This document shows, piece by piece, positions 14,701 through 57,709 of a stretch of 57,755 bases of DNA. A program made the position numbers and the translations under genes. Source of the DNA: a virus; IMG/VR virus record IMGVR_UViG_3300005664_000003, positions 1 through 57,755 of that record. One strand, written 5' to 3'. Under the pieces are notes generated by a model. It had not been told where the DNA came from. It ran no database searches and saw only the letters and a list, made by a program, of their open reading frames with translations. Numbering within the stretch: position 1 is the first letter of the stretch; each line of letters begins with the position of its first letter.

Positions 14701-17700
14701 CATCAAGAATAATCCACAAGATGTTGTAAGTTATTATGAACAGGATTCATTCTATTCAGATAATCAATTCTTACAAGCTATCAAAAATAGCTCTGACAAG
14801 ATTGACCTTAATTTTACTTCTGTAATCAGACGTAATGAGGATAATCCTAAAGCGTTTGAGAAAAGGACTGAGATTGAGTCTATGATAATGAGATTCACTA
14901 CCTTCTACAATAATGGGGGAAGTGAAGGATATTTCTTTACAGGAACACCTGCAGATAAGACTAAACAACCTATTATAAGCCTGCCTAAGAAGAAAGGTAC
15001 TCAAGCAGCAAAAGACTTCTTGTTTACTGTTCTTAAAGGCACAATGAACAGTGAGGTAGTACGTATCCAAAGATTAGCTAAGTTCCAAAACTCAGCTAAT
15101 GAGGATAATGCATTACCAAAAGATATAGCAAACTTAAAGAACTCATCAAGATTCATCTATATTCCTGGACTAAATACTGTACCTAAATTGAAAGAATCCC
15201 TTTCAAGCGGAGATATAAGTACAGAAGAATACACTAAAGCTCTACAAACAGCAGAGAAGATAATTGAGGACTTTATTGAGTCTGAATTCTCAGCTTTTAA
15301 AAGCTTCCTTGCAGAAAACGACATCATTAACATTAATGAAAAAGGTGAGGTAACAAGTGAGAGAATACCAACTCAGATACTTGACAGAAAGAGCTTGTCT
15401 GCATTCCTGGAGGAGTTTTTCTACAACGATTTAGCTTGGAGACTAGAAGTTTCCAAGGTACTGATGGGAGACATTGCATTCTATAAAAGCCCTGATGACT
15501 ATTTCAAGCGTGCTTATCAGACTGTAACTCCTGGTATTAAAGGTTACAGTGAAACTCCGGTAACCTTAACGAGAGGTATTTACGCTAAACAGATGAAAGT
15601 AAATACTCCTGAATATCTGAATTCATTAGCTGAGTTAGCTGGAGATAAGAGTATTGCAGAAAAGTATCAATCAGTTAATAAAACTGATGCTCAATCCTTA
15701 ATGGACATAGATAGTTACAAGGTACTTGCAGAAAGTCTTGGACAGTGGAGTAAGGACCATGAACGTCTTTACAAATTAGCTTGGAGCAAAGGTATCACTG
15801 TACGGTATGCAACAAGACAATTATTAGATAAAGAATTAATTACTGAGGAACAAGCTAAAAGACTGCGTAGTGCTGCTGCTAAGATATTACTACAACCTTT
15901 CAAGCCATTCCAATTTAACAACAGAAAGATAACTCTTCCTGATGGATCTACTATGATCATAAAGGAACAGTTCAAAGACTCTATTACCCCAATTACACCA
16001 GAATTAACTAAAATACATTCTGGATTCAGAGACCTTCTTGCTTTCATGAAAGCTAATAACATTGGTATCATGTCAGCAGAAGATACTACTAAAGTAGGGT
16101 TATATGGAGTAATTAATGACATTAGTCAGCCGGTACAGGACTGGCAGAAAAGGGTAGTTAACTTGTCTGACTTCAGGTTCCCGCAACTTATTCCTGACAA
16201 GAAGAAGACTGATATTAAAGGTACTCAGTTCCACAAACTCATACTTGGTAACATAGACGACAAGACTATGTACAAAGTAGGAAGTACATCTATGCTTGGT
16301 AGTACTTTAAAAGAGAAGTACAACGAATTATGGGAAGAAAAGATACAAGCCTCGGCAAGTAATTTACAAAAACGACTTGGAGTAGGAAAGGAATTCAAAT
16401 TATCTGACGATAAAGCTAAGAGAAAAGAACAGCTGTTTAAACTCAAAACAACTCTGGAACAGGAGCTGATGTCAAGAGACTTGAATGAAAACTACCAGGA
16501 TGTACTTGAATTAGTAAGAGCAGTTAATAACGAAATCGACTTTGCTGTTCCTATTTCCTTCCCTGCATTTGGACAGAAGTTCCAGTCTATCTTGACTAAC
16601 TTATGGAAAAAGAATGTTCTTGGACAAGACAGCCCAGGATATTCTGCTATTAACCTTGCAGACTTTGGAGTTGGATATGATGACGAATTAAAATTTGTCA
16701 CAAACAACGAAGGTGAATTAACTGAAGCTGAGATAGCTTTACCCCTTGACAATTTAGGTCAGATAGGATTACGTTACGGTGATAATATACTACCTAATGG
16801 ACGTATTATTTGGGATAAATTAACAGAGAACCAGAAGAAAGCTCTACAATTCATTCTATACCGTATCCCTACTTCCAACAAGAGTTCAATGATTCCTGTA
16901 AGGGTAGTGAAGATTGTACCAAGTAACCTCAACAACGTAGTTATTATTCCGGGAGAATTAACTATTCAACAAGGTCTTGACTTTGACGTTGATAAGTCAC
17001 AATTACTACGCAGAGTTACAGATAAGGAAGGAAAGATTGATAGCGAGAGTGTGGATACTAAGTTATTCAATATCTACTGGGGAATCTTAACAAACAAAGC
17101 TCATACAAAAGAATTACTTACTCCTCTTGCCAGCCCTACACTTGAAGCTAAATTTAAAGAATATCAGGAAATGGGGCTTATAGACTTAGGTACAAGTTCC
17201 AGTGTAGCTTCAACACAAGCTGATGTTAAAGCTGAGATTCGTAACAAGGACGGTAAAGCTGAGATTGGTATTGCGTCCAGATTTAATACTGGTCACACAG
17301 TACTACAGACAATTAAAGACTTTATTGGTGTAAATGTTGAAATAGGTATTACAATTGACCAAAAGTATAAGTTCAATGAGCTTGGGCGTACCTTTGACGC
17401 TTCAGGAACACTAATTTCAGAGAACCATGCTGAAAGTCAACAAGCAGCTCTTGATGCGGCTAAAAACCCCTTGCTGGCTTATTTAGGTGTAGTTACTGGA
17501 ACAATGGCTAGTTTCCATACAATGATTGACTTTGGGGTACCATTACCTGTTATTACAGACTTCTTCATGCAGCCTGTAGTAAGGGAATGGACTAAATTCT
17601 ACAAGCAGGAAGGTCAGGATAGTCGTAAGGCTACTGAAAAGCTGTTCGAGTCCTATCCTGCTATTAAAGATCAGTACAACATATTAGATAGAGATGAAAC

Positions 17701-20700
17701 AGTTAGTACCGAGGCGTTAAAAGAAGGGTTAAAGTCTGCTATAGACGCAAACCCTGCTCATGATGCTATGGTGTTAAATCAATTCATTAAAACAAACATA
17801 ATTGCAGGGCAATTAGGAAAGATAAACAATGTACTTTCAATAGATACTTTCCAGGATGCTACAGGAATAGAAGCCTTAGAAGCTATGTTACAACAGAAAA
17901 ATGAAGTAACTAATCCTGAAGCTTTAGTATATATCGACTCAAGAGTATTTGATACAGCAACAACACCAGCTGTAGGTAAGAGACTTGCCAGCTTCTTTAA
18001 GCACGGAATACAAGATGCACTTACCTATACTGGACAATTCTTCCCTTCTACCAGCATGGCTTACTCACAAGTAAGAACAGCTTATGCTGAGAATATAGGA
18101 CAAGCAAGCATTACTGATAAAGGTCTAATCAAACAACTTAACCAGTTTATTGATTACTATAACTTGGAAGGAGATAGTCTCCTCTCACGTACCTTGATTG
18201 CTATCCATCCTCAAAAAGGACAGGAAGATTACAGAAACCGTTGGTCATTATTCAGTGCAGAAAAGAGTATCTGGAAGTATATTGATCAAATGGTAGATAA
18301 GCACCCTGTTCTCAAGAACAACGAACTTATTAAAAATCTTGAGACAAGCAAAACAGGAGTTGATCAAGTACAGATTGTAGGTATTCGTAACACGGATAAC
18401 AATACAAATAAGACTGAAGTAACTAACGGATGGTATGAAATGCTTAACCACCCTAACATAGAAGTACGTGGGTTGGCTCATGACCTTATACGTTACGCGA
18501 TTATGACAACAGGGTTTAACTTTAATGCTAAATCCATGTTTGAACTTATTCCGGTTAGTTTCTGGATAGAATCAGGATTAGATAACGCATGGAAGAATAT
18601 AATTAAAGCTGCTCCTTCTATGAACATAGATCAGGAAGCTGCTGTAGTTAACTTTATTCGTCATAACTTCAAGAATCTTGACAGATTCCCTGAACTATAC
18701 GGTAAGTTCCAGAAAGATAAAGGGTTCTTCTCTAATATGATTAAGAACGCCAAGATAACTTCCGGAACAAGACATATAACTGAATTCTACTTATCTGACG
18801 AATACAGTGAAGCTGAAGTACTACCTAAATTCATAAGATTTAATGATCGTGAATTAGGAGATTACAGACTGTATGAGGCTGATCCAAAAGACCTGTCTCA
18901 CTTTAGAGAAGTACAACCTCTTGGGTCAAGAAACAACTTCTATGAAGTATCTGCTGATGGACGTAGTCAGAGTAAGGCACCAGGCAACAGGAAATTGAAC
19001 CTCAATCCGGACCCTTGGGGACTAGGGGGGGACAACTTGACTGTGCGTAGTCCTTTATTTGGTCGGGTGAATTCAGAGATAGATTCAAGACTGAGATTCT
19101 ATTTACCTACTGACAAAGAAGCAACATCTTCTGTGATCAAACGGTTGATGCTTGACGAAAGCAATCCCGAAACGTTGAGAAATCTTGAAATTCTGTTAAA
19201 GAACTCAAGTAAGATCAATACACCTATTATTCTGGATAGTACACTTGGGACTAACAACTTTGGTAAATTCATTTACAAAGGAGAAAGTGGTGCAAGTGAA
19301 ATCTTAATTAATAGAAATGGAGCGGTAGAATCTGAAAAGGAATTACGCCACGTTCTTACACACGAAATAAACCACGCATTCTCTGTAGCTGTTATACAGA
19401 ACCCGGAAGGAGAAGAACAGATCAACTTTGTAAGAAATCTGGATAGGATCTTCAATGAAGCAACTAAACTTCCTGATGTACAAGGTGAGTACGGTCTAAC
19501 AAACTCAAAAGAGTTTATAGCTGAACTAGCTTCTAATTCTAAGTTCAGAGCTAAGTTAAGAGGTACAAGTCTATGGAGCAGGCTTATAAGAGCTTTACGT
19601 AAGTTACTTGGGTTTACAGATAAGTTTGATCAAATCTTAGAGGAATACTACAAAGTACTTGACAAAGCTGATAACTTACAGAACTACAGTCCTGTAGAAC
19701 TTGGTTTTGAAAAGAAGGAAACTAAGGTTGGAAGTAAGAGAATAGACTTACTTGATCAAATGCTTGCGTCTCTTAAAGCCAGAGAAGAAAGACTTAAAAC
19801 AAAGGGCAAAAGAGCTGAAGCTAAACAACTTGGAGGAAACATAGAAGTACTTACTGAGTTGGTTAAAACTAAGCGTAACGAAGCTGTAGTTAAATACTTG
19901 ATTACAGTAGAGGAAGAAATGAATAAGCTGAAGGAAGCTTACAACTTAATGGCTAAAGATCCAGGTAAGATCAACCCTGATACACTCTTTGCTATGAGAG
20001 AACAGCTTGTGTCCTATAAGTTACTTGATGCCTTCTCTGACCAAATTCACCAAAACCCGGATAACTTTATTCCTGAAGGGGGTAATAGTGAGGTTCTTTT
20101 GAAGAGCTTGGATCAACTTCGTGCAGATGTACATAAAATGAACAATGACACAAGACGTCTTGCTATTAAGAGGTTTGCTTCAGTTATTAAGAATACCCTT
20201 ACTGACCCTAATATAACCCTTGAATCAATTGTAGATCAACTGGAAGTTGCAGATCGTGACATTGATTGGTTAAATCGCTGGACAGAAGTGGGCATGGAAA
20301 TGGATGACGTAGCAGTACGTACAGCACATAAAATGCTCACAAATAACACTACATCAGCTTACCGTGCGATTCAGGATGACCTTTATACTACAGAGAAGAA
20401 AAAACAGAAAGCTGTAGTTGTATTAAAAGTACCTACTGAAAAAGGTAAGTATAAGTGGGAAAAGAAGACTATAGAGTTTACCTCTACAGGTATGCTTAAG
20501 TCTTTAAATGAGTACGAAGGTTGGTTAAAATCTAAAGGCAGAAACCCAAACAGTATTGTAGATAAGTTTGCTCCAATCCTGGATATGGAAAGTCTTGCTG
20601 AGAACGAGAATGGTGTAAAACTAATTTCTCCTTGGAGCAAAGAAGGGAAAGCAATTCTTTCTATAAAAGAAGGTAGTCCTGATTTCCCTCTAAGACAGTT

Positions 20701-22645
20701 CTATGAAACCTTTGTGTTAGGTTACTTAAAGTCACAGGAAAACATACCTGCTCTTGCCATGAGACCCGGCTTGAGAATCCCTTCTATCCAACGTTCTATG
20801 CTTGAAGGTATTATTCGTGAAGAAGGTAAAGACAAATTTAATGTTCTAAAAGAACGTGCTATTGATGCAGTTCGTAAAAGATATGACGAAAAAGACTTTA
20901 AAGCTGTAGACGAGAATGGTAAGCCGCAAGAGTACATTCCTGTCAGATTCATAGCTAAACAGGACGGTAAATCTGGAAGACTAAGCACAAGGGAAGTAAG
21001 CTTGGACTTAGCCTCTACTCTACCACTCTTTATTCATGAAATGTATTCAAGAAAAGGACTTGAAAGCCTACACTCTGATCTTGAACTGGGTAAACTTGTA
21101 CTTGCTGAACGTGAAGTAATGAAGACAAGAAGAGTTAAAGGACCAGGCTTAACCCCTTGGTTAACAAGAGAAAGAACTGGTATTCCTTTAGCTTCAGGTA
21201 AGTTTGATACGATCAAAGGAGAGCAAAGCAAGTCCTTTGAAGCCTACGATTCACTACTTAGAAGATTCATGTACGGGCAAGTTAAGAAAAGCGAAGGAGA
21301 TGTAGAAAAAGATGGTAAGAAGTTCTCTGTATCCAAGATGGTTGATAGCTTCCTTGGATTCACTGGATTTAAAATCATGTTCGGTAACCTAGCTATACCG
21401 TTAACTAACGGTATTGTAGGAGAACTTACAATGGTAAAAGAAGTAGTTGGTGGAAACTTAATTGATAAAAAAGATTACGCTTACGCTAATAAATTCTTTA
21501 GTCAAATAGCATTACCTTCTGCTCAGGATCTTGGAAGAAGAGAGAAGAAAACCAAAGCAGGAAGAATATTAACTTACTTCAACCCTCTTGATCATAACAG
21601 AGCTGTAACTGACCTTGGTGTAGATACTAACTGGATGAGAACTATCTGGAATACACTTAGCAGAACAGGAGGAAGTTCAATAGAATTTTACCTTGGATCT
21701 AAAGCTATTGGTGCTACATTTAATAGATTTAAAGCTAAGAATAGCAAAGGGGAAGAAGTTCCGTTGTATGATGCTATTGAAGTAAGTAATACAGGTAAAG
21801 TAACATTATCAGAAGGGTATACCTACAAAGGTAAGAAGAGTATAAGCGGAGAAGATATAAATGAAATCCGCAACTACTCTATTCGGGTATACCAGTTAAT
21901 GAATGGTGTGTACAATCAGATGGATAAACCTGCTGTTAACGAATATGCTGCAGGTAGATTATTATTCTTCATGCGTAACTGGTTAATCCCTGGTATTCAA
22001 GCGAGATGGAAAACTAAGTATTACGATGAAAGATTGCAAAAAGAGAACGAAGGTCATTATCTCTCAGCTTTAATAGCGTTTAACAACAGTTATAGCAGAA
22101 ATGGTATAGTGCAGGGAACAATTGATACTTTACGTATCTTAAGCTGGTTTGGTGCAAGTAATCCTGAATTATTATTACTACCAAATGAATTAGAGCTTTC
22201 CCAGGAAGAGAAGGATAACATCATTAACATGAGAAAAGCTAACATCCGTAAAACGTTGTTTGAACTTTATTCTATTATTGTTTTAACAGCCCTTCTTGGA
22301 TTAGCTTGGGACGATGATGATGAGAGTTATACTAAGTACATGACCGCAAGAATAAGAAGAGAAATGAGTACTTTCTATTCTCCTTCTACAGCTTGGGAGG
22401 TATTACGTTCTCCTACAGTAGCACTCAACACAGTAGATGGTTTAAACAGAATACAAGGAGACTTGTTTAACTCTCTTGGAGCTGTAATAATGGGTGAAGA
22501 TCAACCAGTGTATGAATCAGGTCCGTATAAAGGAGAAAACAAGCTTTCTGCAGACTTAAAGAGACAGCTTGGTCTCGGGTTTGAAAAACAATTTGACGAT
22601 CTCTCCCGTAAAACAAGACTGATACAAAGAGGAGGATATAAATAA
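8768..22645 (+). CDS. Giant virion protein with DxDxD RNA polymerase core and two zincin motifs
   Basis: One uninterrupted 4,625-residue frame. Residues 2738-2742 read DFDVD, the DxDxD metal-binding signature of the YonO-like, single-subunit RNA polymerases packaged in crAss-like virions (known for phi14:2 gp66). Two HEXXH zinc-protease motifs occur: HEALH at 1378-1382 and HEINH at 3532-3536. Residues near 350-720 form long Lys/Glu/Gln coiled coils, and a Glu/Pro-rich linker lies near 680-720. A hydrophobic segment occurs near the C-terminus (about 4497-4512). The protein is about twice the phi14:2 enzyme, so polymerase and other ejected domains appear fused. In this phage type it is injected to transcribe early genes. 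Confidence 0.85.
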   Translation: MELAPGFGEELKPLAPIGGDDPGDPKKKKALAPGFGQQYPSLPNPTQQPTESPRLSKNYIAQADLENYMAGQQSGLELIGKTIGQAIPNAILGTVEAGSYLLDVEQMIDKLKGDEAEYTNWLADAMKQAKESIAQDSSLKVFQTAESREGFAPGDATWWASHTPDTIGSALSLMLPAAGVAGLVGKGARALKMGEGATKVAQGVGATLASRYAESTMEASAVYERAYTDLLNKGISPEVARMRAGQQASNVWNTNWIFAMQDFLQYSSMLKGFSTAAKGGIGKSIAEIATQTASEGAEEAGQFIVGEEAYRAAMDTETDYFGKGFNQRLYEYINDPEFKASTLLGAFGGGVFTAAGPLGRAAEKGSSRVADIVSKQVKNIVDLGLKKERANYVGDTATSQTIDDVQFAQTAFQKLKEGKLANYKQELEALKTSKNLTPEVRQNLDNYTQDIDFIADEQAKLKASKLPADVHERVLATKLEQRQLGRLDNALTNELREIEQELVNNKELPSELVNLKQTQANLEAYKKLASTNNQFQPKVAEIQKAYDQLKMSGELGFPNLNEALTTSRDNDLFSKTFQLVSTKEKQAAVKKNLAELTTPEGIAKARKEAETRKVNEQAKAVLNNPDAKQEEILQAAANTTDEALKTALAQKHQALVDSKKAANQEETKKFVEEPPAPIPSSEEVLVEPPTESEYAPEMEAPPVDDSAPIEIPFAGGITPEQATRWGGLTKEQVSSILERIEIEQKKEVPPVVTQQAEKDKKAEESRQRTTVPAWLKEVNEDGSATVYTNNITGETATADKIFAVDTETGQLLANTPKVLAGQQVILKLENDFPWTLTPGFKPDKVENYVINVYVEGNPRPIKQLPSADNPRLADQRVITYLRNEVIARGEVKTRIASKNVGTIRKSSTLNSLDILKSDYVQVNEEQWKFENTAHKPILGFIDFNGNITTPNIGAMKGITKNVIDQVNNTQIVPRSNDLAKLRGKVITFRTAPDGSKRIIGLEPRNLNQTEIDWLNNNIAQLLVSKDFTTLNNVVYLPQHSAGVYSTKGDKKPDVLELNRSRIHIVNTTANTADVLIPVKGTQPVWVIVDSKQVGEMLAAKPYAFRVMTPDGNKSEVFYNHAGQGQITTKFKELLSKQFKNVPVTNLNSEIRYTDPVTNKAYNTYYDYLVETSSVQTNLPGSKTMGVGEDSSYSFNQVALYLDPNIEESQFTLVEENDEPVITNIIGTEKDLRDRIESLDVEIRREKYSVNTSEGQFYKENGKWFDYKNKEVTDPIIIKIFEHNLAANLKGRKIDTTPDKALDDFFGPDAKLKPATEQGFKLLTEKELTWFKDNIGEQAIEVAQNVDRFISKNGIAAFGQYYNGLVTIAEFAPEGTAYHEALHFFADPSNGLVTKKQSELINKIGEEKLAEEFEKYKLSDGKYKPAEPVRNFFKKLWLMIKNLLGFKTPVEKLFAQLDNLNLSLEQQKAIQEKAKLQLDPAEPRYKKLPGFRYIKQQQESIVAWTSEVIRLSGELARQEEVSLGEYLTNPKNLDAILGSIKSNFEKDFERIKGSKERSKVDQARYYSYLAMGIGTPSAGEESFVGSFEDVTTATGLPEDGFRTKVLKDLSRYGFSVRLKDGSTYTNSQEEFAESVDNAELKSQDEAERLYDIDHTLINPSESMSNRVKLFLASIPEPVLDQSGMPTGENKQTVFGTTKFLDFRRVDGNLALKLRDASNPITKLTELAENDAIAKVVLDALMNEKNKGNIQLFNEFAAKYKRDGYYKKTVLHGTKKVPIDKNDPSDIDPENPFATHRIENFAKTIDSDRASSDRVLHNRWREEGVRKKIVDTDGTVNTKKAAAIFARLEAFKNKFYIAKQKKANLPYTEVKDEFNSILSELGVSVPNQMWKELDALPNPGFKYRKVENMFFGTRSRTLEQLLLNAKEGKDPFEGSSLLTNLAKTSSVYIDDSRGGAYRNDEGNLENPINWPSALTELANNIKNNPQDVVSYYEQDSFYSDNQFLQAIKNSSDKIDLNFTSVIRRNEDNPKAFEKRTEIESMIMRFTTFYNNGGSEGYFFTGTPADKTKQPIISLPKKKGTQAAKDFLFTVLKGTMNSEVVRIQRLAKFQNSANEDNALPKDIANLKNSSRFIYIPGLNTVPKLKESLSSGDISTEEYTKALQTAEKIIEDFIESEFSAFKSFLAENDIININEKGEVTSERIPTQILDRKSLSAFLEEFFYNDLAWRLEVSKVLMGDIAFYKSPDDYFKRAYQTVTPGIKGYSETPVTLTRGIYAKQMKVNTPEYLNSLAELAGDKSIAEKYQSVNKTDAQSLMDIDSYKVLAESLGQWSKDHERLYKLAWSKGITVRYATRQLLDKELITEEQAKRLRSAAAKILLQPFKPFQFNNRKITLPDGSTMIIKEQFKDSITPITPELTKIHSGFRDLLAFMKANNIGIMSAEDTTKVGLYGVINDISQPVQDWQKRVVNLSDFRFPQLIPDKKKTDIKGTQFHKLILGNIDDKTMYKVGSTSMLGSTLKEKYNELWEEKIQASASNLQKRLGVGKEFKLSDDKAKRKEQLFKLKTTLEQELMSRDLNENYQDVLELVRAVNNEIDFAVPISFPAFGQKFQSILTNLWKKNVLGQDSPGYSAINLADFGVGYDDELKFVTNNEGELTEAEIALPLDNLGQIGLRYGDNILPNGRIIWDKLTENQKKALQFILYRIPTSNKSSMIPVRVVKIVPSNLNNVVIIPGELTIQQGLDFDVDKSQLLRRVTDKEGKIDSESVDTKLFNIYWGILTNKAHTKELLTPLASPTLEAKFKEYQEMGLIDLGTSSSVASTQADVKAEIRNKDGKAEIGIASRFNTGHTVLQTIKDFIGVNVEIGITIDQKYKFNELGRTFDASGTLISENHAESQQAALDAAKNPLLAYLGVVTGTMASFHTMIDFGVPLPVITDFFMQPVVREWTKFYKQEGQDSRKATEKLFESYPAIKDQYNILDRDETVSTEALKEGLKSAIDANPAHDAMVLNQFIKTNIIAGQLGKINNVLSIDTFQDATGIEALEAMLQQKNEVTNPEALVYIDSRVFDTATTPAVGKRLASFFKHGIQDALTYTGQFFPSTSMAYSQVRTAYAENIGQASITDKGLIKQLNQFIDYYNLEGDSLLSRTLIAIHPQKGQEDYRNRWSLFSAEKSIWKYIDQMVDKHPVLKNNELIKNLETSKTGVDQVQIVGIRNTDNNTNKTEVTNGWYEMLNHPNIEVRGLAHDLIRYAIMTTGFNFNAKSMFELIPVSFWIESGLDNAWKNIIKAAPSMNIDQEAAVVNFIRHNFKNLDRFPELYGKFQKDKGFFSNMIKNAKITSGTRHITEFYLSDEYSEAEVLPKFIRFNDRELGDYRLYEADPKDLSHFREVQPLGSRNNFYEVSADGRSQSKAPGNRKLNLNPDPWGLGGDNLTVRSPLFGRVNSEIDSRLRFYLPTDKEATSSVIKRLMLDESNPETLRNLEILLKNSSKINTPIILDSTLGTNNFGKFIYKGESGASEILINRNGAVESEKELRHVLTHEINHAFSVAVIQNPEGEEQINFVRNLDRIFNEATKLPDVQGEYGLTNSKEFIAELASNSKFRAKLRGTSLWSRLIRALRKLLGFTDKFDQILEEYYKVLDKADNLQNYSPVELGFEKKETKVGSKRIDLLDQMLASLKAREERLKTKGKRAEAKQLGGNIEVLTELVKTKRNEAVVKYLITVEEEMNKLKEAYNLMAKDPGKINPDTLFAMREQLVSYKLLDAFSDQIHQNPDNFIPEGGNSEVLLKSLDQLRADVHKMNNDTRRLAIKRFASVIKNTLTDPNITLESIVDQLEVADRDIDWLNRWTEVGMEMDDVAVRTAHKMLTNNTTSAYRAIQDDLYTTEKKKQKAVVVLKVPTEKGKYKWEKKTIEFTSTGMLKSLNEYEGWLKSKGRNPNSIVDKFAPILDMESLAENENGVKLISPWSKEGKAILSIKEGSPDFPLRQFYETFVLGYLKSQENIPALAMRPGLRIPSIQRSMLEGIIREEGKDKFNVLKERAIDAVRKRYDEKDFKAVDENGKPQEYIPVRFIAKQDGKSGRLSTREVSLDLASTLPLFIHEMYSRKGLESLHSDLELGKLVLAEREVMKTRRVKGPGLTPWLTRERTGIPLASGKFDTIKGEQSKSFEAYDSLLRRFMYGQVKKSEGDVEKDGKKFSVSKMVDSFLGFTGFKIMFGNLAIPLTNGIVGELTMVKEVVGGNLIDKKDYAYANKFFSQIALPSAQDLGRREKKTKAGRILTYFNPLDHNRAVTDLGVDTNWMRTIWNTLSRTGGSSIEFYLGSKAIGATFNRFKAKNSKGEEVPLYDAIEVSNTGKVTLSEGYTYKGKKSISGEDINEIRNYSIRVYQLMNGVYNQMDKPAVNEYAAGRLLFFMRNWLIPGIQARWKTKYYDERLQKENEGHYLSALIAFNNSYSRNGIVQGTIDTLRILSWFGASNPELLLLPNELELSQEEKDNIINMRKANIRKTLFELYSIIVLTALLGLAWDDDDESYTKYMTARIRREMSTFYSPSTAWEVLRSPTVALNTVDGLNRIQGDLFNSLGAVIMGEDQPVYESGPYKGENKLSADLKRQLGLGFEKQFDDLSRKTRLIQRGGYK

Positions 22646-24146: not shown

Positions 24147-24502
24147 TTTAGTAATTCGTAAGTTAAGATTAACTGGACGTAATGTAAGATTTGATCAAAT
24201 CCTATAACTACAAAACCATTATGGTAGTCTCCTTCATCAAAACACTGTTTAACAATGTGACTAGTAATAAGATCAATAGCAAAGTGTGTAACGAATGTAA
24301 TTACTGCAAAGACTACACCTGTCCCGAAATGTTCAAAGTGAATGGTAGAGAAGAGCAACCAAACTAAAGAGTAGGTTGCTACATGTTTTAGTAATGCAAA
24401 CATGTCGTCTGATTTATTAGACGCTTGCCAATGAGTCTGTAGAGCAAAATCTGCTAACCAGTGGATTAACCCAATGGCTAGCAGTAATTTGTAGCTTATC
24501 AT
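24143..24502 (-). CDS. DUF3307-type membrane protein
   Basis: The 119-residue protein has four hydrophobic segments. The motif HWLADFALQTHW (about 14-25) and a later HFAIDLITSH are typical of the DUF3307 family of small phage and bacterial membrane proteins. Conserved His and Asp in membrane segments hint at metal or substrate binding, but the function is not known. It lies between the NAMPT-like and phosphatase genes with 4-base overlaps on both sides. Confidence 0.7.
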   Translation of the reverse strand: MISYKLLLAIGLIHWLADFALQTHWQASNKSDDMFALLKHVATYSLVWLLFSTIHFEHFGTGVVFAVITFVTHFAIDLITSHIVKQCFDEGDYHNGFVVIGFDQILHYVQLILTYELLK

Positions 24503-26214
24503 ACTTTCAATCTTTCTCTGATTTCTTCCAGGGTAGTAGTTCTTACTAACTCACCGTTTTTGAAAACAGTTTCAAGTAAGCCTCCGTTTTCTTGTTCCCA
24601 AGTACATTGATCATTTACTTTCAACTCATCAGTTCCATCAAACTTCTGCATTGCTGGATGAGTATCCCAATAATTGTTAAATACTTGTAAAAGACCTTTC
24701 TTAGACCTCTTAGTACCATCATCAGTAATTGGATCTTTGTAGATTTCTCTAGTTTCAACAAGATCTTCTCTACCAGTCAGACTGTAAGTTGCTTTGATAA
24801 GATCAAGATGTTTAGGGTTAGAACGATCAAAAGCTATTTCAACTTCTTCTCCTCCAGCCTTCTTTACTTTAACAGTAGGTACATTTAATACTTCACCGTA
24901 GGTAGCTTTCATCGCAAAGCCGAAAGTATCACGAGTATTATACTGGTAAGTGTAACTACCAATACCAAGAACCACATTAGTCGAAGCGAAACCTTTAGCT
25001 TTGAGTCTCTCACAAATCTGAGCGGCACGTTCCAGAGTGATAGAATCGCCATAGATAGCACCAATATGAGGATCAAGTTCTTTATATCCATATTCATTTA
25101 CTTTACCTCCAAACAAATCCCAGAGAAGTTCAATTACACCTTTTCTTTCTGGTTCAGGTACTTCCTTAAGTTGTCCTCCACGCTTGTAGTAATATTTCCC
25201 ATCCGTATTTTGATAATACTCTACTCCACATAGAATATCTACAGGGTCACCAGAATCTGGACGAATAACAAGTTTACCATCTCTTGAAAGGATTTGATCC
25301 TTAATTTGAGGAAGGTGAACTGTCAGGACTTCCCAAAGATTCCATGTATCAGAAACGACACTAAGAATACCAGTAGGATATAGATCCAGAAGCCTTTTGA
25401 AGGTGTCCACCTCAGCTTCTTTAGTACCCATACACATAACACTGTGCTCAGTAGCAGGTACAGAAGCACCGATAAGCCCTGTAGCTCCGTAAGATTCTTC
25501 AAGCTGATATATAGCTGGAATAGTATCCGTTCCGGTAAACGATGTAAGATGACCCATGCCAGAAAGAATAGCGGATTCAATACTAGACATACCACGCATA
25601 GAAAAGTCATGACCTTGCCACTGAACGAATTCTGAAGATCCTGTAGTTTCCAATGCGTATTTTGAAAGGACTTTTTTGTATTCATAAGCTATTGTTGCTG
25701 AAGTAATTGGTTGCCACATCATAGTTGAAATTAAGGTTTCCAAGTAATTTGTTAACCAGGCAAAGTCAGGATGTGTATTTTTAATTGTAAAGCAGGGAAC
25801 TCCAATTGGAACTAAAGTACCTTCTGGAACAGCTTTAATTTCAATAGGTAAATAACCTAAATCCCACAAAGCTTCAATGTGCTTAGTATCTACAGGAATG
25901 TGCTTCTGATACTCTTTAATAACAGAGGACTTGTAAATTAACTTGATAGTGGTTAATGTTTTACTGTCAACTCCTTGAAGACCTCCAAGTCTTTCAACTT
26001 CATTCTCTATGTCCTGTTTGTGAAAGAAGAGCTTGTCAAATTCTTTAATCAAATACTCAAGACAGAAATGCTGTAATCCAAAGAATACAACCTTGTCTAT
26101 TCCAGGAATTCTACTCTTTCTTGGAGTGAAGTTGGAATAGATCATTGTAGTACCTTCTGGTAGCATACGATGATGTTCCGTTTTATAATAATCAACTAAT
26201 AGTAGTGGATTCAT
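24499..26214 (-). CDS. NAMPT-like nicotinamide transferase (Namat-type candidate)
   Basis: The 571-residue protein follows nicotinamide phosphoribosyltransferase throughout. Landmarks are the N-terminal DYYKTEHHRMLPEGT, YLETLIS (about 157-163), the catalytic histidine in SVPATEHSVM (H257) and RPDSGDP (318-324), which contacts the phosphoribosyl substrate. Length is somewhat above human NAMPT (491). In phages, a NAMPT-like enzyme next to a Prs-like enzyme forms NARP1, in which nicotinamide is joined directly to ADP-ribose pyrophosphate to rebuild NAD+ destroyed by host defences. The Prs-like gene is two short genes upstream and no NMN adenylyltransferase is visible, which favours NARP1. Confidence 0.9.
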   Translation of the reverse strand: MNPLLLVDYYKTEHHRMLPEGTTMIYSNFTPRKSRIPGIDKVVFFGLQHFCLEYLIKEFDKLFFHKQDIENEVERLGGLQGVDSKTLTTIKLIYKSSVIKEYQKHIPVDTKHIEALWDLGYLPIEIKAVPEGTLVPIGVPCFTIKNTHPDFAWLTNYLETLISTMMWQPITSATIAYEYKKVLSKYALETTGSSEFVQWQGHDFSMRGMSSIESAILSGMGHLTSFTGTDTIPAIYQLEESYGATGLIGASVPATEHSVMCMGTKEAEVDTFKRLLDLYPTGILSVVSDTWNLWEVLTVHLPQIKDQILSRDGKLVIRPDSGDPVDILCGVEYYQNTDGKYYYKRGGQLKEVPEPERKGVIELLWDLFGGKVNEYGYKELDPHIGAIYGDSITLERAAQICERLKAKGFASTNVVLGIGSYTYQYNTRDTFGFAMKATYGEVLNVPTVKVKKAGGEEVEIAFDRSNPKHLDLIKATYSLTGREDLVETREIYKDPITDDGTKRSKKGLLQVFNNYWDTHPAMQKFDGTDELKVNDQCTWEQENGGLLETVFKNGELVRTTTLEEIRERLKV

Positions 26215-26402
26215 TTTTTCAATTTTTTAATTAATTCATCTACTGTATGAACACCATGTTCATTACAGAGTTGTTTAAGGTGGTTGTAGAAAGTATCTCC
26301 TTCTTTTAACCCTCTCAAGAAATGAGGACGTATGTTCAATAAATCACATACGTACTCATATTCTTCGTAGTCATCGTTAATTCGACTCAAAATCGACCCC
26401 AT
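26211..26402 (-). CDS. Small acidic protein, 63 residues
   Basis: A small soluble protein with an acidic, Tyr-rich N-terminal half and a Lys-rich end. It overlaps the NAMPT-like start by 4 bases (ATGA type), so it is translationally coupled to the NAD+ genes. It shows no recognisable family. An accessory role in the same pathway is possible, from position only. Confidence 0.55.
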   Translation of the reverse strand: MGSILSRINDDYEEYEYVCDLLNIRPHFLRGLKEGDTFYNHLKQLCNEHGVHTVDELIKKLKK

Positions 26403-26475
26403 AAAAGATTTTAGCTATTAATCTGTTAAACCAGTTATTATCTACTACCTGATAGACTTTTTTACTTTCGTTCAT
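26377..26475 (-). CDS. Micropeptide of 32 residues coupled to the Prs-like gene
   Basis: ATG at 26475 overlaps the Prs-like stop in an ATGA arrangement, and the frame ends at 26377 inside the next gene. The peptide (NESKKVYQVVDNNWFNRL near its start) is amphipathic, with aromatic residues. The 4-base coupling is the only reason to call it. Function unknown. Confidence 0.4.
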   Translation of the reverse strand: MNESKKVYQVVDNNWFNRLIAKIFYGVDFESN

Positions 26476-27245
26476 ATTATTTTAAATTGAGTTACAAATG
26501 GATGATCTACATCCTTTACTGAATTAGTACAGAAGATGTGTGATAAACCACAATCTTCTAATACATTAATACCCTTGGAAAAATATCCATGAGTAGCATA
26601 GAGGTACACACGCTTTGCTCCTTGTTCAAGAAGCTTTTTAGCAAGAACGATGAATGTGTACCCACCATCGCAAATGTCGTCTACAATAAGACAATTCTTG
26701 TCTTTTACATCTCCTGTAAACTGAAGATCTATTTTTCCTTCGTTATCTCTGTGCTTAACTCCCGCAACTACAGGAAGTTCAAGATTAGTACCTAGTTCAA
26801 ATACTTTCTTGTACGCTCCGGCATCGGGGGAAACAAGTACTATCTCTTCTTTTGTTAATTTAGCTATAGACTCAACGGCTTGAGTTACAAAGTGTTCAAC
26901 ACCTTCTTTGTAAGACTTATTAATTAAAGCAAGTGTTACGTCTGAATGAGGATCCAGGATATTAACAGTTGTAAAATTACAGCTATTAATTACTTCAGCA
27001 ATTAACTTTAAGTCAAAGGATTGGTGAGGATGAAACCTACGATCACTTCTTTGACCAAACATACAAGGTATTGCTACATGAATGATTGGGTCTGCATAAG
27101 CTGTGTGAATAGCATCAGCTAATGCTCTTAAGAAGAACAAGTCTTCATAAGAGTTTATTCTTTCTCTGATCTCCAACGGACCTTCTATATCAGTTATTTT
27201 AACTGAGATCTGTCCATCAGGATACTTTATTCTTTCGTATTTCAT
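26472..27245 (-). CDS. Prs-like pyrophosphokinase (Adps-type candidate of NARP1)
   Basis: From ATG at 27245 the protein has 257 residues. It carries the N-terminal KYPDGQ, the FGQRSDRRFHPHQ region equivalent to the ATP/metal region of PRPP synthetase, SPDAGAYKK, and the PRPP loop IVDDICDGGYT. It is shorter than bacterial Prs (about 310). The frame stays open upstream to about 27335 with a non-ATG start, but that stretch overlaps a strong RNA fold and is probably not coding. In NARP1 the Prs-like Adps makes ADP-ribose pyrophosphate from ADP-ribose. Pairing with the downstream NAMPT-like gene supports that role over plain PRPP synthesis. Confidence 0.85.
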   Translation of the reverse strand: MKYERIKYPDGQISVKITDIEGPLEIRERINSYEDLFFLRALADAIHTAYADPIIHVAIPCMFGQRSDRRFHPHQSFDLKLIAEVINSCNFTTVNILDPHSDVTLALINKSYKEGVEHFVTQAVESIAKLTKEEIVLVSPDAGAYKKVFELGTNLELPVVAGVKHRDNEGKIDLQFTGDVKDKNCLIVDDICDGGYTFIVLAKKLLEQGAKRVYLYATHGYFSKGINVLEDCGLSHIFCTNSVKDVDHPFVTQFKII

Positions 27246-27254
27246 AATAAAAGT

Positions 27255-27366
27255 AAGCCATCGCAAGATCGTCAATCTTGCATCTTTACGCTCGTCTTCG
27301 TAGGCTCTATTTTTACATACAGGAGAAGCTATCAAAAACCCGTATAGACTTTGAGCTAAATGGCTT
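27255..27366 (-). ncRNA. Structured leader RNA before the NAD+ genes
   Basis: Bases 27360-27366 and 27255-27261 form a perfect 7-bp closing helix. Inside are a hairpin at 27339-27345 / 27317-27323 (7 bp, one G-U) and one at 27276-27281 / 27263-27268 (6 bp, 7-base loop) that sits one base from the closing helix. The layout recalls a tRNA acceptor plus T arm, but the T-loop consensus is missing. The element ends 10 bases before the Prs-like ATG. It could be a riboswitch-like leader or a processed tRNA-like RNA. Confidence 0.5.
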
Positions 27367-49761: not shown

Positions 49762-49871
49762 GATGTGCAGGATATTCCACACCAAGTACCTCCTGTTTGG
49801 GTGTTGGATTCGAACCAACTCGTTTTGCTTTATGTACAGAAAATTTGAATTAACATTGCTGTTCTCACATC
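49762..49871 (-). ncRNA. tRNA-like RNA unit 3 of the array (degenerate)
   Basis: Closing stem AGATGTG with CACATCT (7 bp), then AGAACAGCA. Next come a perfect T arm (GTTGG, loop TTCGAAT, CCAAC) and a 6-bp acceptor-like helix with one bulged C that closes an 11-base loop. No proper D arm can be drawn. CTGTACA upstream of the T arm could hold a GTA anticodon. Being last in the array and imperfect, it may be decaying or a mimic rather than a tRNA. Confidence 0.45.
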
Positions 49872-49877
49872 TTATCA

Positions 49878-50002
49878 GTTTACTTTTGTTTGCATAGAGC
49901 TCTACCACTGAGCTATCTCCCCGTAAGTGGGGAGAGCCGGATTCGAACCAGCGACCTCTTCGTTATGATCGAAATTGCGTTTTTAATTTGCTGTAAGTAA
50001 AC
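49878..50002 (-). tRNA. tRNA-like RNA unit 2: circularly permuted, CAT anticodon
   Basis: Order along the minus strand: outer stem AGTTTACTT, ACAGCA, anticodon arm with loop ATCATAA (anticodon CAT) closed by TTTCG/CGAAG, variable AGGTC, T arm GCTGG-TTCGAAT-CCGGC, acceptor strand TCTCCCC, then A and CTTAC. The other acceptor strand GGGGAGA follows, then TA, D arm GCTC-AGTGGTA-GAGC and outer stem AAGTAAACT. The 3' part thus precedes the 5' part, and both acceptor strands pair perfectly. Joining GAGC-T-CT to TCGATCATAA would complete a 5-bp anticodon stem. Either a permuted tRNA-Met/Ile2 gene or a tRNA mimic. Confidence 0.6.
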
Positions 50003-50007
50003 TTATC

Positions 50008-50123
50008 AGAGTTCTTTTTTATGCGTGTCCTAACCACTAGACGACCGACCAGTTACGGCCAGGCAAGATTCGAACCTACGTTCCGCCCCCCATAAGGAAT
50101 TTTTAAAATGCTGTTTGAACTCT
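50008..50123 (-). tRNA. tRNA-like RNA unit 1: circularly permuted
   Basis: Outer stem AGAGTTC with GAACTCT, then AAACAGCA. Next: T arm GTAGG-TTCGAAT-CTTGC, acceptor strand CTGGCCG, 4-base link TAAC, acceptor strand TGGTCGG (7 pairs, three of them G-T), TC, and D arm GTCT-AGTGGTTA-GGAC of the Glu/Gln/Asp style. Joining CGC from the D-arm side to CC-TTATGGG-GGGCG would give a perfect 5-bp anticodon stem. The resulting anticodon (ATG) is odd, so the join point or identity is uncertain. Confidence 0.55.
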
Positions 50124-50127
50124 TATC

Positions 50128-50185
50128 AGGTTAGTTCTTTTCTCAAAACCAAAATTTGAATTTTAAGAATTGCTGTTACTAACCT
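50128..50185 (-). ncRNA. Array unit 0: hairpin without tRNA-like body
   Basis: Stem AGGTTAGT with ACTAACCT (8 bp) encloses AACAGCA and an A/T-rich loop of about 40 bases resembling the spacers of the other units, but no T or D arm. It is followed by the same GATA spacer. It shows the repeat frame of the array without an insert, either an ancestral empty unit or a leader. Confidence 0.55.
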
Positions 50186-50291: not shown

Positions 50292-52013
50292 TTACATTTC
50301 AATACGAGCCATAACTTCCTGATCCATAGCTGCTTCAAACAGCTCTACATCAGTTTTAGGCTCTTTCTTTTGACCTTCTACACCAGTTAAGAATGCTATG
50401 ATTGAACCATCATAACCTCCAAAGTAGTATACATTCTCAGTTTCTCCGTACGTTTCAAACTTCTCACCACTACCTTTTCCGTAATAGCTATTCTGTAAAT
50501 TCCACAGAACAATCTTGAAGTTATTGACATAAGTTTCAGAGAATCCTGCTTTAGTTAAAGTAGCCCTGGCTGTTTCAACATTAGTTTTACCTAATGAAGT
50601 AGGATTAAACTCTGAGTCTGATATACAAAGAATACCAGTAGGAAACTCAGATTCAGCTACTCCCTGTCTTTTTATTTGGCAGAAAAGTTCTATAACTGAC
50701 TGAAAATTAGTACTACCTACAATACCAGAATGATCATTCATCCACTTTTCTGTAGCTGTTTTACCTTTCCAGGTGTGCATCTTTGCAGTTGTATTAAATT
50801 CAATCCAACTGTTTGCAAATGCTCCTGCTGGTAACATTTCAGAGAAGAATAAAGCCAGTGCCTTACCTATATTGTAACAAGATAGTTTTGTTCCTGGTGC
50901 AAGAGAAGACATGGAGAGTGAAGTATCACGTACTACAATCAGTGAAGTGTCTTTCTTTGCATTCTTTTTAGCTGTTTCTACCAGTCCGTCAAACTGCTTG
51001 TTGATAGTATGAATTTGATACTTCTTTAAAGTAGTAAGATCAAGATTAGGATGTTGATATTTACCAACAGTTGAGTACTTCTCAAATAGCTCATGTACAT
51101 AACCTGTGAACTTAGCTACTGGTTTAGAAGCAATCCAGGTTTCATATTGCTTTTCGAGCTTATTGTTTGCAATAAACTTCCCCGAAACTAGCAGGGAGAG
51201 AGCTCTTCCATGAACAGTATCGAAATTAATTTCCAGCATTTTACCTCTCGAAATTAGCTGTTGCCATACATGAGCATTACCTGAAGCTTTTAACTGACGA
51301 TATTTCTTGTATGAAGCACTTTCATTCTCTTTCTTCGAACCGAATAAAAGAGAACAAATCCATTTAGCAATAATATTATCAGCTTGTGAAGCTAAAGTTG
51401 TACATTTCTTGTTTGACTTAATAGTAGGCAAATACTTCTTAACTAAGTTATTAGTCTTTGGGTTTTCAAGCCCAGCAAGCAACAGCTTACCAAACTCATC
51501 CCAATGAAGTTGTCTTCCTTCCCAACCATTGTACTGTAAATCGTAGGAAAGCAATTGAATAACATCTTTCCAGGAACCAACGGAAATAAACAACTCTATA
51601 TTTTTCCAGAACACGGTTGGGTGATTTACAGCAATCCATAATGATCGTGTAATCCCCTCATGTCTTAGACCAGAACCTCTTTGTACAGTAGTTGTCTTCT
51701 CTCCTGTGAAGAAGGATACAACACGGGTAATCATTCTCAGAAATAGGGTGAATGCTACTGTCATCTTTGGGTTAATAGCCCATAGAGTTGACATATCTGA
51801 AGCTATATCATTATACCCCCTTGGTTGTTTGTACAATCCTGTTTTTGAGAATTGATCCACAAAGTCATTACCTGTTGTAGTATATTTTAAAGCACCATTA
51901 CCTGATTTGGTTTGGGCTGATTTCTTTAAACCTTGTTGAACAAATCCATTTGTGGTTGCAACAGATGCTTGCTCTTCTTTTGTGAAGAGTGTTGATTGTT
52001 TTTTGCTGAACAT
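50292..52013 (-). CDS. Ro60/TROVE-like protein with vWA domain
   Basis: The 573-residue protein has a helical-repeat N-terminal part (about 60-340) with RGSGLRHEGITRSLWIAVNHP and SVGSWKDVIQLL, features of TROVE/DUF2828 proteins. A C-terminal vWA domain has the metal site DTSLS (363-367), then an SDSEF segment. Ro60 proteins bind Y RNAs and help RNA quality control. Bacterial Y RNAs contain tRNA-like modules, and here a tRNA-like array follows 100 bases downstream. The family call is from motifs I can see; DUF2828 is the main alternative name. Confidence 0.65.
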   Translation of the reverse strand: MFSKKQSTLFTKEEQASVATTNGFVQQGLKKSAQTKSGNGALKYTTTGNDFVDQFSKTGLYKQPRGYNDIASDMSTLWAINPKMTVAFTLFLRMITRVVSFFTGEKTTTVQRGSGLRHEGITRSLWIAVNHPTVFWKNIELFISVGSWKDVIQLLSYDLQYNGWEGRQLHWDEFGKLLLAGLENPKTNNLVKKYLPTIKSNKKCTTLASQADNIIAKWICSLLFGSKKENESASYKKYRQLKASGNAHVWQQLISRGKMLEINFDTVHGRALSLLVSGKFIANNKLEKQYETWIASKPVAKFTGYVHELFEKYSTVGKYQHPNLDLTTLKKYQIHTINKQFDGLVETAKKNAKKDTSLIVVRDTSLSMSSLAPGTKLSCYNIGKALALFFSEMLPAGAFANSWIEFNTTAKMHTWKGKTATEKWMNDHSGIVGSTNFQSVIELFCQIKRQGVAESEFPTGILCISDSEFNPTSLGKTNVETARATLTKAGFSETYVNNFKIVLWNLQNSYYGKGSGEKFETYGETENVYYFGGYDGSIIAFLTGVEGQKKEPKTDVELFEAAMDQEVMARIEM

Positions 52014-52228
52014 CTTTTTCGTTTTAGTTTATGAGGAGGAAATTCATTAGTATACAGTAATGCTCCATTATCACTAACTGTATACACTGTACCTTTGTTA
52101 GAAGAAGCTTGTAATAGTTTCTTCTGAAAATAAGCAAATGCTTTTGGTACATTAATGTGTATTGCTTGTTGTTTGACAAAGACCTTCCTGGTCCTATCAT
52201 AAGTCCATTTATGAACGTCTTTTGTCAT
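51926..52228 (-). CDS. Basic hypothetical protein, 100 residues
   Basis: The N-terminal 65 residues look like a real small domain, and the Lys/Gln/Ser-rich tail runs 88 bases into the Ro60-like gene in another frame. The basic tail could bind RNA. Because of the long overlap the true end may reflect a frame change. Function unknown. Confidence 0.45.
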   Translation of the reverse strand: MTKDVHKWTYDRTRKVFVKQQAIHINVPKAFAYFQKKLLQASSNKGTVYTVSDNGALLYTNEFPPHKLKRKRCSAKNNQHSSQKKSKHLLQPQMDLFNKV

Positions 52229-57163: not shown

Positions 57164-57709
57164 TTATAACTCCTTTGGGTTAATTTGAATAATTTGTTTA
57201 CCAACTGATTGTGCATATTTTACACAATTAGCTGTACCACCAGATGAACCATCCCAAACTGCAATTAATAGATCACAGTTGTTTACCATCCAGATATTTC
57301 GCTGTTGCATTTTCTGGGTAGAATATGAGTTACCGCTAGGTGAAAGACAAGTTTTAAGATTGTCCAAATCTTTGTGCAATGAAACTCTATGGTCTACCAA
57401 AAACACATCATGGGATTGTGTCAGGATATTGAAATATTGATCTACTGACTTTTTAGGCCATCGTGTGTACTGTCCTTTACAAGGAATAGCAGCTATGAAC
57501 GGTATTCTTAAACTGATAGCTATTTGAGCAAACAGAGTATCAATGCCTAATGCCATCCCTGTGATTAGCGTAAGATCAGTTTCACTCATGAAATCATACT
57601 TAGCTAGTAAGTTCTCAATTTGATACTTAATTAGCTGAAGTAATGGACTAGTAAGATCATAGTCATTACCAAGTTTATGTGGTCTATGACCTGTTATTGC
57701 TATTTTCAT
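57164..57709 (-). CDS. SLOG-type (DUF1273-like) nucleotide-binding protein
   Basis: The 181-residue Rossmann-like protein starts MKIAITGHRPHKLG, then has LITGMALGID (the glycine-rich strand-turn) and WDGSSGGTANCV, the pattern of YspA/DUF1273 SLOG proteins. SLOG domains bind nucleotides such as NAD-derived molecules, and some act in defence or counter-defence. Given the NARP1-like genes in the same window, a link to NAD+ or ADP-ribose sensing is possible but only inferred. Confidence 0.7.
   Translation of the reverse strand: MKIAITGHRPHKLGNDYDLTSPLLQLIKYQIENLLAKYDFMSETDLTLITGMALGIDTLFAQIAISLRIPFIAAIPCKGQYTRWPKKSVDQYFNILTQSHDVFLVDHRVSLHKDLDNLKTCLSPSGNSYSTQKMQQRNIWMVNNCDLLIAVWDGSSGGTANCVKYAQSVGKQIIQINPKEL

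Follow-up and report, generated by a model that had tools for sequence, protein, structure and literature searches.

Y RNAs encoded near Ro genes are already known in phages. Here we describe a candidate locus of this kind in IMG/VR virus record IMGVR_UViG_3300005664_000003, of which we analyzed a single stretch of 57,755 nucleotides (nt), positions 1 to 57,755 (hereafter, the window). A tandem array of four RNA units occupies 50185-49761 on the minus strand and adjoins a gene for a putative RNA-binding protein, P0001. We estimate the probability that the array consists of four phage Y RNAs linked to a Ro60-like (DUF2828/DUF7788-type) protein at roughly 85%.

Bacterial Ro proteins bind Y RNAs, and a Y RNA tethers Ro to PNPase or gates it (PMC7790460, PMC8058203); the domain of Salmonella YrlA that resembles transfer RNA (tRNA) has been proposed as a competitive inhibitor of an anticodon nuclease (PMC7790460), and tRNAs encoded by phages counteract such nucleases (PMC11555353). 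In social amoebae, each Class I RNA opens with AAG and closes with CUGU; its short terminal stem, with an 11-nt motif by the 5' strand, bounds a variable interior. These RNAs are reported to be absent outside Dictyostelia (PMC7919456).

Structure of the array

A preliminary description of the region had noted four units spaced by exactly GATA, each beginning with AG, ending with CT and bounded by a stem of its own, the stems measuring 8, 7, 9 and 7 base pairs (bp). All of this is confirmed on the minus strand (Table 1). The motif ACAGCA, said to follow every 5' stem, is present 1, 2, 0 and 3 nt past the stem in U1, U2, U3 and U4, respectively. Folded whole with RNAfold, the 425-nt array yields exactly four domains, and a GATA lies between each two neighbors; folded singly, U1 and U3 are more stable than their shuffles (z-scores -3.32 and -3.41). 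The array begins 107 bp downstream of the Ro60-fold gene, on the same strand, and two related loci (L123 and L126) have a hairpin at the same position between gene and array as the one listed for the window.

Neither ARAGORN nor Rfam at its gathering thresholds found a match in the array. The highest-scoring match to the YrlA family (RF02553) is U3, with 37.2 bits (E-value (E) 1.6e-6) over model positions 24-84, that is, the tRNA-like module only; U2 matches weakly at 15.6 bits. With the Class I RNA family (RF01414), U3 scores 21.0 bits, the best in the window, and U1 17.4 bits. The earlier aside that YrlA RNAs mimic tRNA was the right lead. As for the "two or three" units said to enclose a tRNA with its halves reversed, U2 and U3 hold the full T-arm/acceptor/D-arm module, U4 combines a T arm with a different hairpin, and U1 has no such module.

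Table 1. Features of the array and of the adjoining gene, in window coordinates
Feature	Position	Strand	Description
P0001 gene	50292-52013	-	Ro60-like RNA-binding protein, 573 amino acids; predicted HEAT-like ring and vWA domain
Start-codon element	51962-52016	-	Unit-like, over Ro start codon: AAG-AUG-UUCAGCAAA ... CAUCUG, inner CUCUUC/GAAGAG hairpin; candidate autoregulatory site
G+C-rich hairpin	50223-50190	-	GTAAGGAGGAG ... CTCCTCTCTTAC, between Ro stop codon and array; read by eye
Unit 1 (U1)	50185-50128	-	Short putative Y RNA with ACAGCAA and an inner hairpin, closed by an 8-bp stem
Linker U1/U2	50127-50124	-	GATA
Unit 2 (U2)	50123-50008	-	7-bp stem, tRNA-like module
U2 T arm	50079-50063	-	
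U2 acceptor	50062-50056 with 50051-50045	-	7/7 pairs, loop TAAC; then Glu-like D arm
Linker U2/U3	50007-50004	-	GATA
Unit 3 (U3)	50003-49877	-	9-bp stem
U3 anticodon-arm-like hairpin	49974-49958	-	TTTCG-ATCATAA-CGAAG
U3 T arm	49952-49936	-	
U3 acceptor	49935-49929 with 49922-49916	-	7/7 pairs
U3 D arm	49913-49899	-	
Linker U3/U4	49876-49873	-	GATA
Unit 4 (U4)	49872-49761	-	7-bp stem
U4 T arm	49819-49803	-	
U4 'class B' module	49795-49768	-	Hairpin CAGGA-GGTACTTGGTGTGGAATA-TCCTG

Support for the unit structure from related phages

As a guard against circularity, units in relatives were delimited by their linkers alone, and pairing was not used. In this linker-delimited set, 104 of 110 stem positions (positions 3-7) were paired, compared with 57.0 +/- 4.8 (maximum 77) in 10,000 reshuffles, and both cases of a broken core stem were merged neighbors. 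For 35 short units, the covariation score of the named structure was 0.478, versus 0.164 +/- 0.019 when shuffled and <=0.131 when slid. Pairing, and not sequence, is thus what the outer stems conserve, as had been claimed. The preliminary description had named compensatory changes in relatives as a test of its outer stems and acceptor strands: the outer stems covary strongly, and the acceptors pair 7/7 in ten units of different sequence.

It had also proposed a covariance-model search of phages. A model trained on the 35 short units (R1, with U1 of the window included) detected held-out units in Lbo-JY46 (E 6e-11), EC6, KP2025, Listeria, Bacillus PJN02 and Enterococcus UTI-EfS3, whereas 342 kb of control viral contigs, picked for containing CTGATAAG...ACAGCA, gave no match below E 0.89. 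These controls stem from a first pattern scan with CTGATAAG...ACAGCA, in which L035 alone among 120 loci was real and the remainder served as control. The four-unit observation is confirmed, and the RNA system is real and widespread.

A Ro-like homologue is encoded in 30 IMG/VR loci, and a script located units in 29 of them. Among phages of known host, units stand beside homologous genes in six groups (Leptolyngbya, E. coli, Klebsiella, Listeria, Bacillus and Enterococcus). The Leptolyngbya cyanophage Lbo-JY46 has five units with GATA-type spacing directly behind the homologue, the E. coli Felixounavirus EC6 (Felix O1-like) has four in a stretch after its DUF2828 gene that carries no annotation, Klebsiella phage KP2025 has several, and Listeria phage A511 and all 54 related Listeria records have three just upstream of the gene. 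There are six units in L126, and R1 counts nine in L151. The strand bias is complete: across 28 loci, the tally of high-scoring units is 80 on the Ro-gene strand and 0 on the opposite strand. Units are found away from or upstream of the gene in L125, L131, L155 and the Listeria phages. In scans of bacterial genomes, one profile found no relative, and the other found one contig of a Lachnospiraceae metagenome-assembled genome, which has no ACAGCAA units.

The Ro60-like protein

P0001 matches phrog_850 ('RNA-binding protein', E 4.6e-29), and its family matches Pfam DUF2828 and DUF7788. Other viral matches are giant-virus DUF7788/DUF2828 proteins and an actinophage 'Ro-like RNA binding protein'; a literature search returned no paper on phage DUF2828 proteins. 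Because PDB sequence searches with P0001 and with its profile gave no relative, we predicted the fold. The AlphaFold2 model, whose input was an alignment of 24 sequences from the window and IMG/VR homologues only, has a predicted local distance difference test score (pLDDT) of 87.6. Only Ro60 structures appear among the five best PDB matches of this model, with E from 1.1e-6 to 8e-5 and probability 1.00. The residues of the vWA metal ion-dependent adhesion site (MIDAS), D363, S365, S367, T435 and D466, are invariant in the 24 homologues. A Ro60-type ring and vWA fold is supported for P0001 by this model.

tRNA-like cargo

Ten units of different sequence contain a T arm followed by seven acceptor bases, which pair 7/7 across a loop of 2-18 nt, and lastly a D arm; this short loop closes the acceptor, and CCA is lacking. 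Most units in relatives are without the module. Many short units carry a different piece: 45 of 60 have hairpin loops of 7 nt, compared with 20.4 +/- 3.3 in shuffles. Loops of 9 nt are also enriched, those of 3-6, 10 and 11 nt are at background, and those of 8 nt are slightly above it. Loops of anticodon type (U33, purine 37) occur in 26 of the 60, versus 4.0 +/- 1.9 in shuffles. CUUUUAA (Lys) appears eight times, alongside CUUGUAA (Thr), CUUCUAA (Arg), CUGUAAA (Tyr), CUGCAAA (Cys) and CUUGAAA (Ser). The shuffles behind these figures were mononucleotide ones of A+T-rich interiors; the argument is stronger where it relies on the specificity for 7-nt loops. In the 35 short units, all five pairs of the anticodon-arm helix show changes on both sides.

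A third cargo, of which U4 is the type, combines a T arm with a GGTACTTGGTGTGGAATA-like hairpin whose stem differs yet remains paired in L130, L141, L143 and L154. This hairpin has no Rfam match and may be a substitute for the D arm. Judged from the sequences compared, the constant part of the units is the terminal stem with ACAGCAA, and the tRNA part is optional.

A unit-like element at the start codon

A similar structure is found over the start codon of some Ro-like genes. AG precedes ATG in 11 of 28 such genes, and 10 of these 11 carry CATCTG 20-80 nt downstream, with which AG-AUG can pair in the manner of a unit's 5' arm; these ten genes are related and do not represent ten independent events. 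As a control, 234 open reading frame starts in the same loci yielded 17 with AG, 0/17 of them with CATCTG. The place of the motif is held by ACAGCAAA or a close variant, and its GCAAA falls in different reading frames among the phages, which protein conservation does not explain. In L137 the element is shifted, and its stem is changed but still paired. In some relatives, the protein probably limits its own synthesis through this mimic of the handle.

Other features of the window and its relatives

The window also encodes what appears to be a nicotinamide adenine dinucleotide salvage pair, namely nicotinamide phosphoribosyltransferase and phosphoribosyl-pyrophosphate synthetase-like genes (24499-26214 and 26472-27335), and in KP2025 a nicotinamide phosphoribosyltransferase gene likewise lies near the DUF2828 gene. 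A single uninterrupted frame of 4625 amino acids spans 8768-22645, with most later genes on the opposite strand, and a YpsA/DprA-like SLOG-fold protein is encoded at the window end (57164-57709). Two phages with Ro-like genes have transfer-messenger RNA-like genes (RF00023; L124 1393-1726, 51.9 bits, and L164 1392-1742, 149.7 bits). In L123, a Twister-P1 ribozyme-like match (8794-8859; 59.5 bits, gathering 67.2) lies about 3 kb from the array.

Interpretation and alternatives

Comparison with relatives establishes the units, their stems, their linkage to the gene and its strand, the predicted Ro60-like fold and the tRNA-like cargoes. We suggest that the terminal stem (AAG...CUG) and the single-stranded (U)ACAGCAA would form a handle bound by the Ro-like protein, and that units would be released by cutting in the A-rich, GATA-type linkers. 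The interior cargo would imitate a piece of tRNA, either the elbow with a closed acceptor, as in YrlA, or, in many short units, an anticodon arm. By presenting such pieces, it could recruit host enzymes that recognize tRNA to the Ro-like protein or decoy them, anticodon nucleases being one example; the presence of several cargoes within one array favors several targets. We regard this decoy or adaptor function of the tRNA-mimicking units as tentative, a possibility that falls somewhat short of an expectation.

Several observations weigh against identifying the units as Ro-bound Y RNAs that mimic tRNA. By sequence, P0001 has no TROVE domain, Pfam giving DUF2828/DUF7788 only. The template modeling (TM) scores of its model to Ro60 are just 0.39-0.47, with high root-mean-square deviation; the fold class is thus supported, while the domain arrangement either differs in detail or is mispredicted. 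The stability of U2 (z -0.83) and U4 (z -0.33) is not above that of shuffles. U1 scores 55.7 bits with R1 but belongs to the training set of that model, so that the score is not independent, and in U1 a longer hairpin is an alternative to the anticodon-like fold. GATA, found in 15 of 27 neighboring pairs among relatives, is the commonest linker and not a universal one. At the start codon of the window gene, the 5-bp stem is weak and is not the minimum-energy fold. Finally, the anticodon nuclease concerned did not cut Salmonella YrlA (PMC7790460).

Among the alternatives, the one that survives best keeps the Y RNAs and dispenses with the decoy. The Y RNAs would tether the Ro-like protein to a nuclease such as PNPase or gate its ring, as in Deinococcus, and the mimicry would serve folding, stability or the binding of tRNA-modifying enzymes. 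This is the published mechanism for bacterial Ro and Y RNA (PMC7790460, PMC8058203) and agrees with the predicted ring-plus-vWA fold; it leaves the variety of exact anticodon loops and the mixed cargoes per array unexplained, and we consider it a serious but somewhat doubtful competitor. We find it improbable that the array instead stays in one transcript as a multivalent set of operator sites by which the protein would regulate its own mRNA and the downstream genes at the level of stability or translation, the tRNA pieces being incidental. Such sites would fit the shared strand, the close linkage to the gene and the hairpin that resembles a unit over the start codon of about ten relatives; the units located away from or upstream of the gene and the strongly conserved form of the tRNA-like cargo speak against them.

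The preliminary description had read the region as an array of permuted tRNA-like RNAs. If these were permuted tRNA genes, the outer stems would bring the unit ends together for joining of the halves, and cleavage of the acceptor loop by RNases would yield functional tRNAs; the reversed halves (3' before 5') and perfect acceptor pairing of U2 and U3 and the CAU loop ATCATAA of U3 invite this reading, but it is very improbable, given that U1 and most units in relatives lack the module and hence a complete tRNA, that the acceptor loops have no CCA, that stem and ACAGCAA rather than tRNA are constant, and that the arrays accompany Ro-like genes instead of standing free. The permuted halves were also considered as a group I intron, a hammerhead-type ribozyme or a case of splicing, all of which were dropped in view of the Ro gene and the tRNA-free units.

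If the array does consist of Y RNAs linked to a Ro60-like protein, the common and unexplained phage DUF2828 'RNA-binding proteins' gain a defined RNA partner, including in the tractable Felix O1-like and Listeria phages. The suggested display of anticodon-arm mimics on Ro particles would bear on phage escape from tRNA-cleaving defenses. We think it unlikely that every part of a broader proposal holds together, namely a separate branch of phage Ro ribonucleoproteins (DUF2828/DUF7788 proteins with ACAGCAA Y RNAs), exact mimics of the anticodon arm and the elbow that disarm host tRNA-cutting defenses, self-repression at the start codon, and Class I RNAs as eukaryotic members that bind a DUF2828/DUF7788 protein.

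Comparison with known systems

P0001 resembles the Ro60/Rsr (TROVE) proteins in its predicted ring and vWA fold, its MIDAS residues and the RNA genes alongside; it differs in belonging to the DUF2828/DUF7788 (phrog_850) branch, with about 10% identity to Ro60 in the structural alignment. The likeness to YrlA lies in the permuted T arm, closed acceptor hairpin and D arm within a terminal stem, a module found in U2 and U3, reduced to the T arm in U4 and missing from U1. YrlA, too, adjoins a gene for a Ro-type protein and occurs in phages. However, the RF02553 gathering threshold of 69 bits is not reached (the best score is 37.2 in the window and 47.8 in an Enterococcus phage), many phage units have an anticodon arm or no module, and the units form tight GATA-spaced arrays. 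We did not file the window units as YrlA because its Ro-stem consensus, cggCga-AUGC...AcUuG-ucGccg, is absent from them and a stem with ACAGCAA stands in its place.

In the actinophages BRock and Atuin, too, a protein annotated as a Ro-like RNA-binding protein is accompanied by several units, of which some hold a permuted tRNA module; these units differ in the handle, TTACTTC, and in their stem sequences. Read by eye, their arrays (Atuin and BRock; L121 2892-3172 and L122 2955-3530) have TTACTTC after the 5' stem, the BRock units have TCGTCGCTTTTTCTAG-like ends, and no such features are annotated.

For Listeria phage CKA15, PMC12282133 reports the DUF2828-type protein CKA15_055 in purified particles and, as putative Y RNAs, abundant noncoding transcripts near its gene, on the same strand and within 2 kb. 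We found three ACAGCAA units in this genome, at 25290-25552. By its coordinates, the top noncoding transcript (26,236-26,727; L166, OR088597.1) is ruled out as these units; the other two abundant noncoding regions may or may not coincide with them.

Class I RNAs share with the phage units an AAG start, a terminal stem of about 6 bp, a variable interior and a CUG end, with CCUUACAGCAA (the Rfam consensus motif) right after the 5' stem, as in the phage units; short phage units are also of similar size, about 42-65 nt. The phage handle, AAG-stem-UUACAGCAA...stem-CUG, matches RF01414 far above control: at E <= 1e-3, about 18 of 31 Ro-phage records match and 0 of 31 control records do. At E <= 1, half of the named control genomes are hit, and only the stronger matches count. 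The best phage unit (Lbo-JY46) reaches 39.3 bits versus a gathering threshold of 41.5. Class I RNAs differ in having a eukaryotic promoter (DUSE), not to be expected in a bacteriophage, and the RNA recognition motif protein Rnp1A, with no Ro-type partner reported; our literature search found no link between Dictyostelium Class I RNA and such a partner. On present sequence evidence, the resemblance may go back to a common ancestor, to binding proteins of a similar type or to convergence. It would tie RNAs reported as unique to social amoebae, whose mechanism is unsettled, to Ro/Y RNA biology with a testable prediction.

Ro with Y RNA in phages is, as a kind, already known, and the preliminary statement that no described phage element has this layout was too strong in view of Ro-linked phage Y RNAs. 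It stands in so far as we found no description of this handle and this array form in the papers searched. The ACAGCAA handle, the DUF2828-type partner, the ordered arrays, the anticodon-arm cargo and the probable start-codon feedback look new to that literature.
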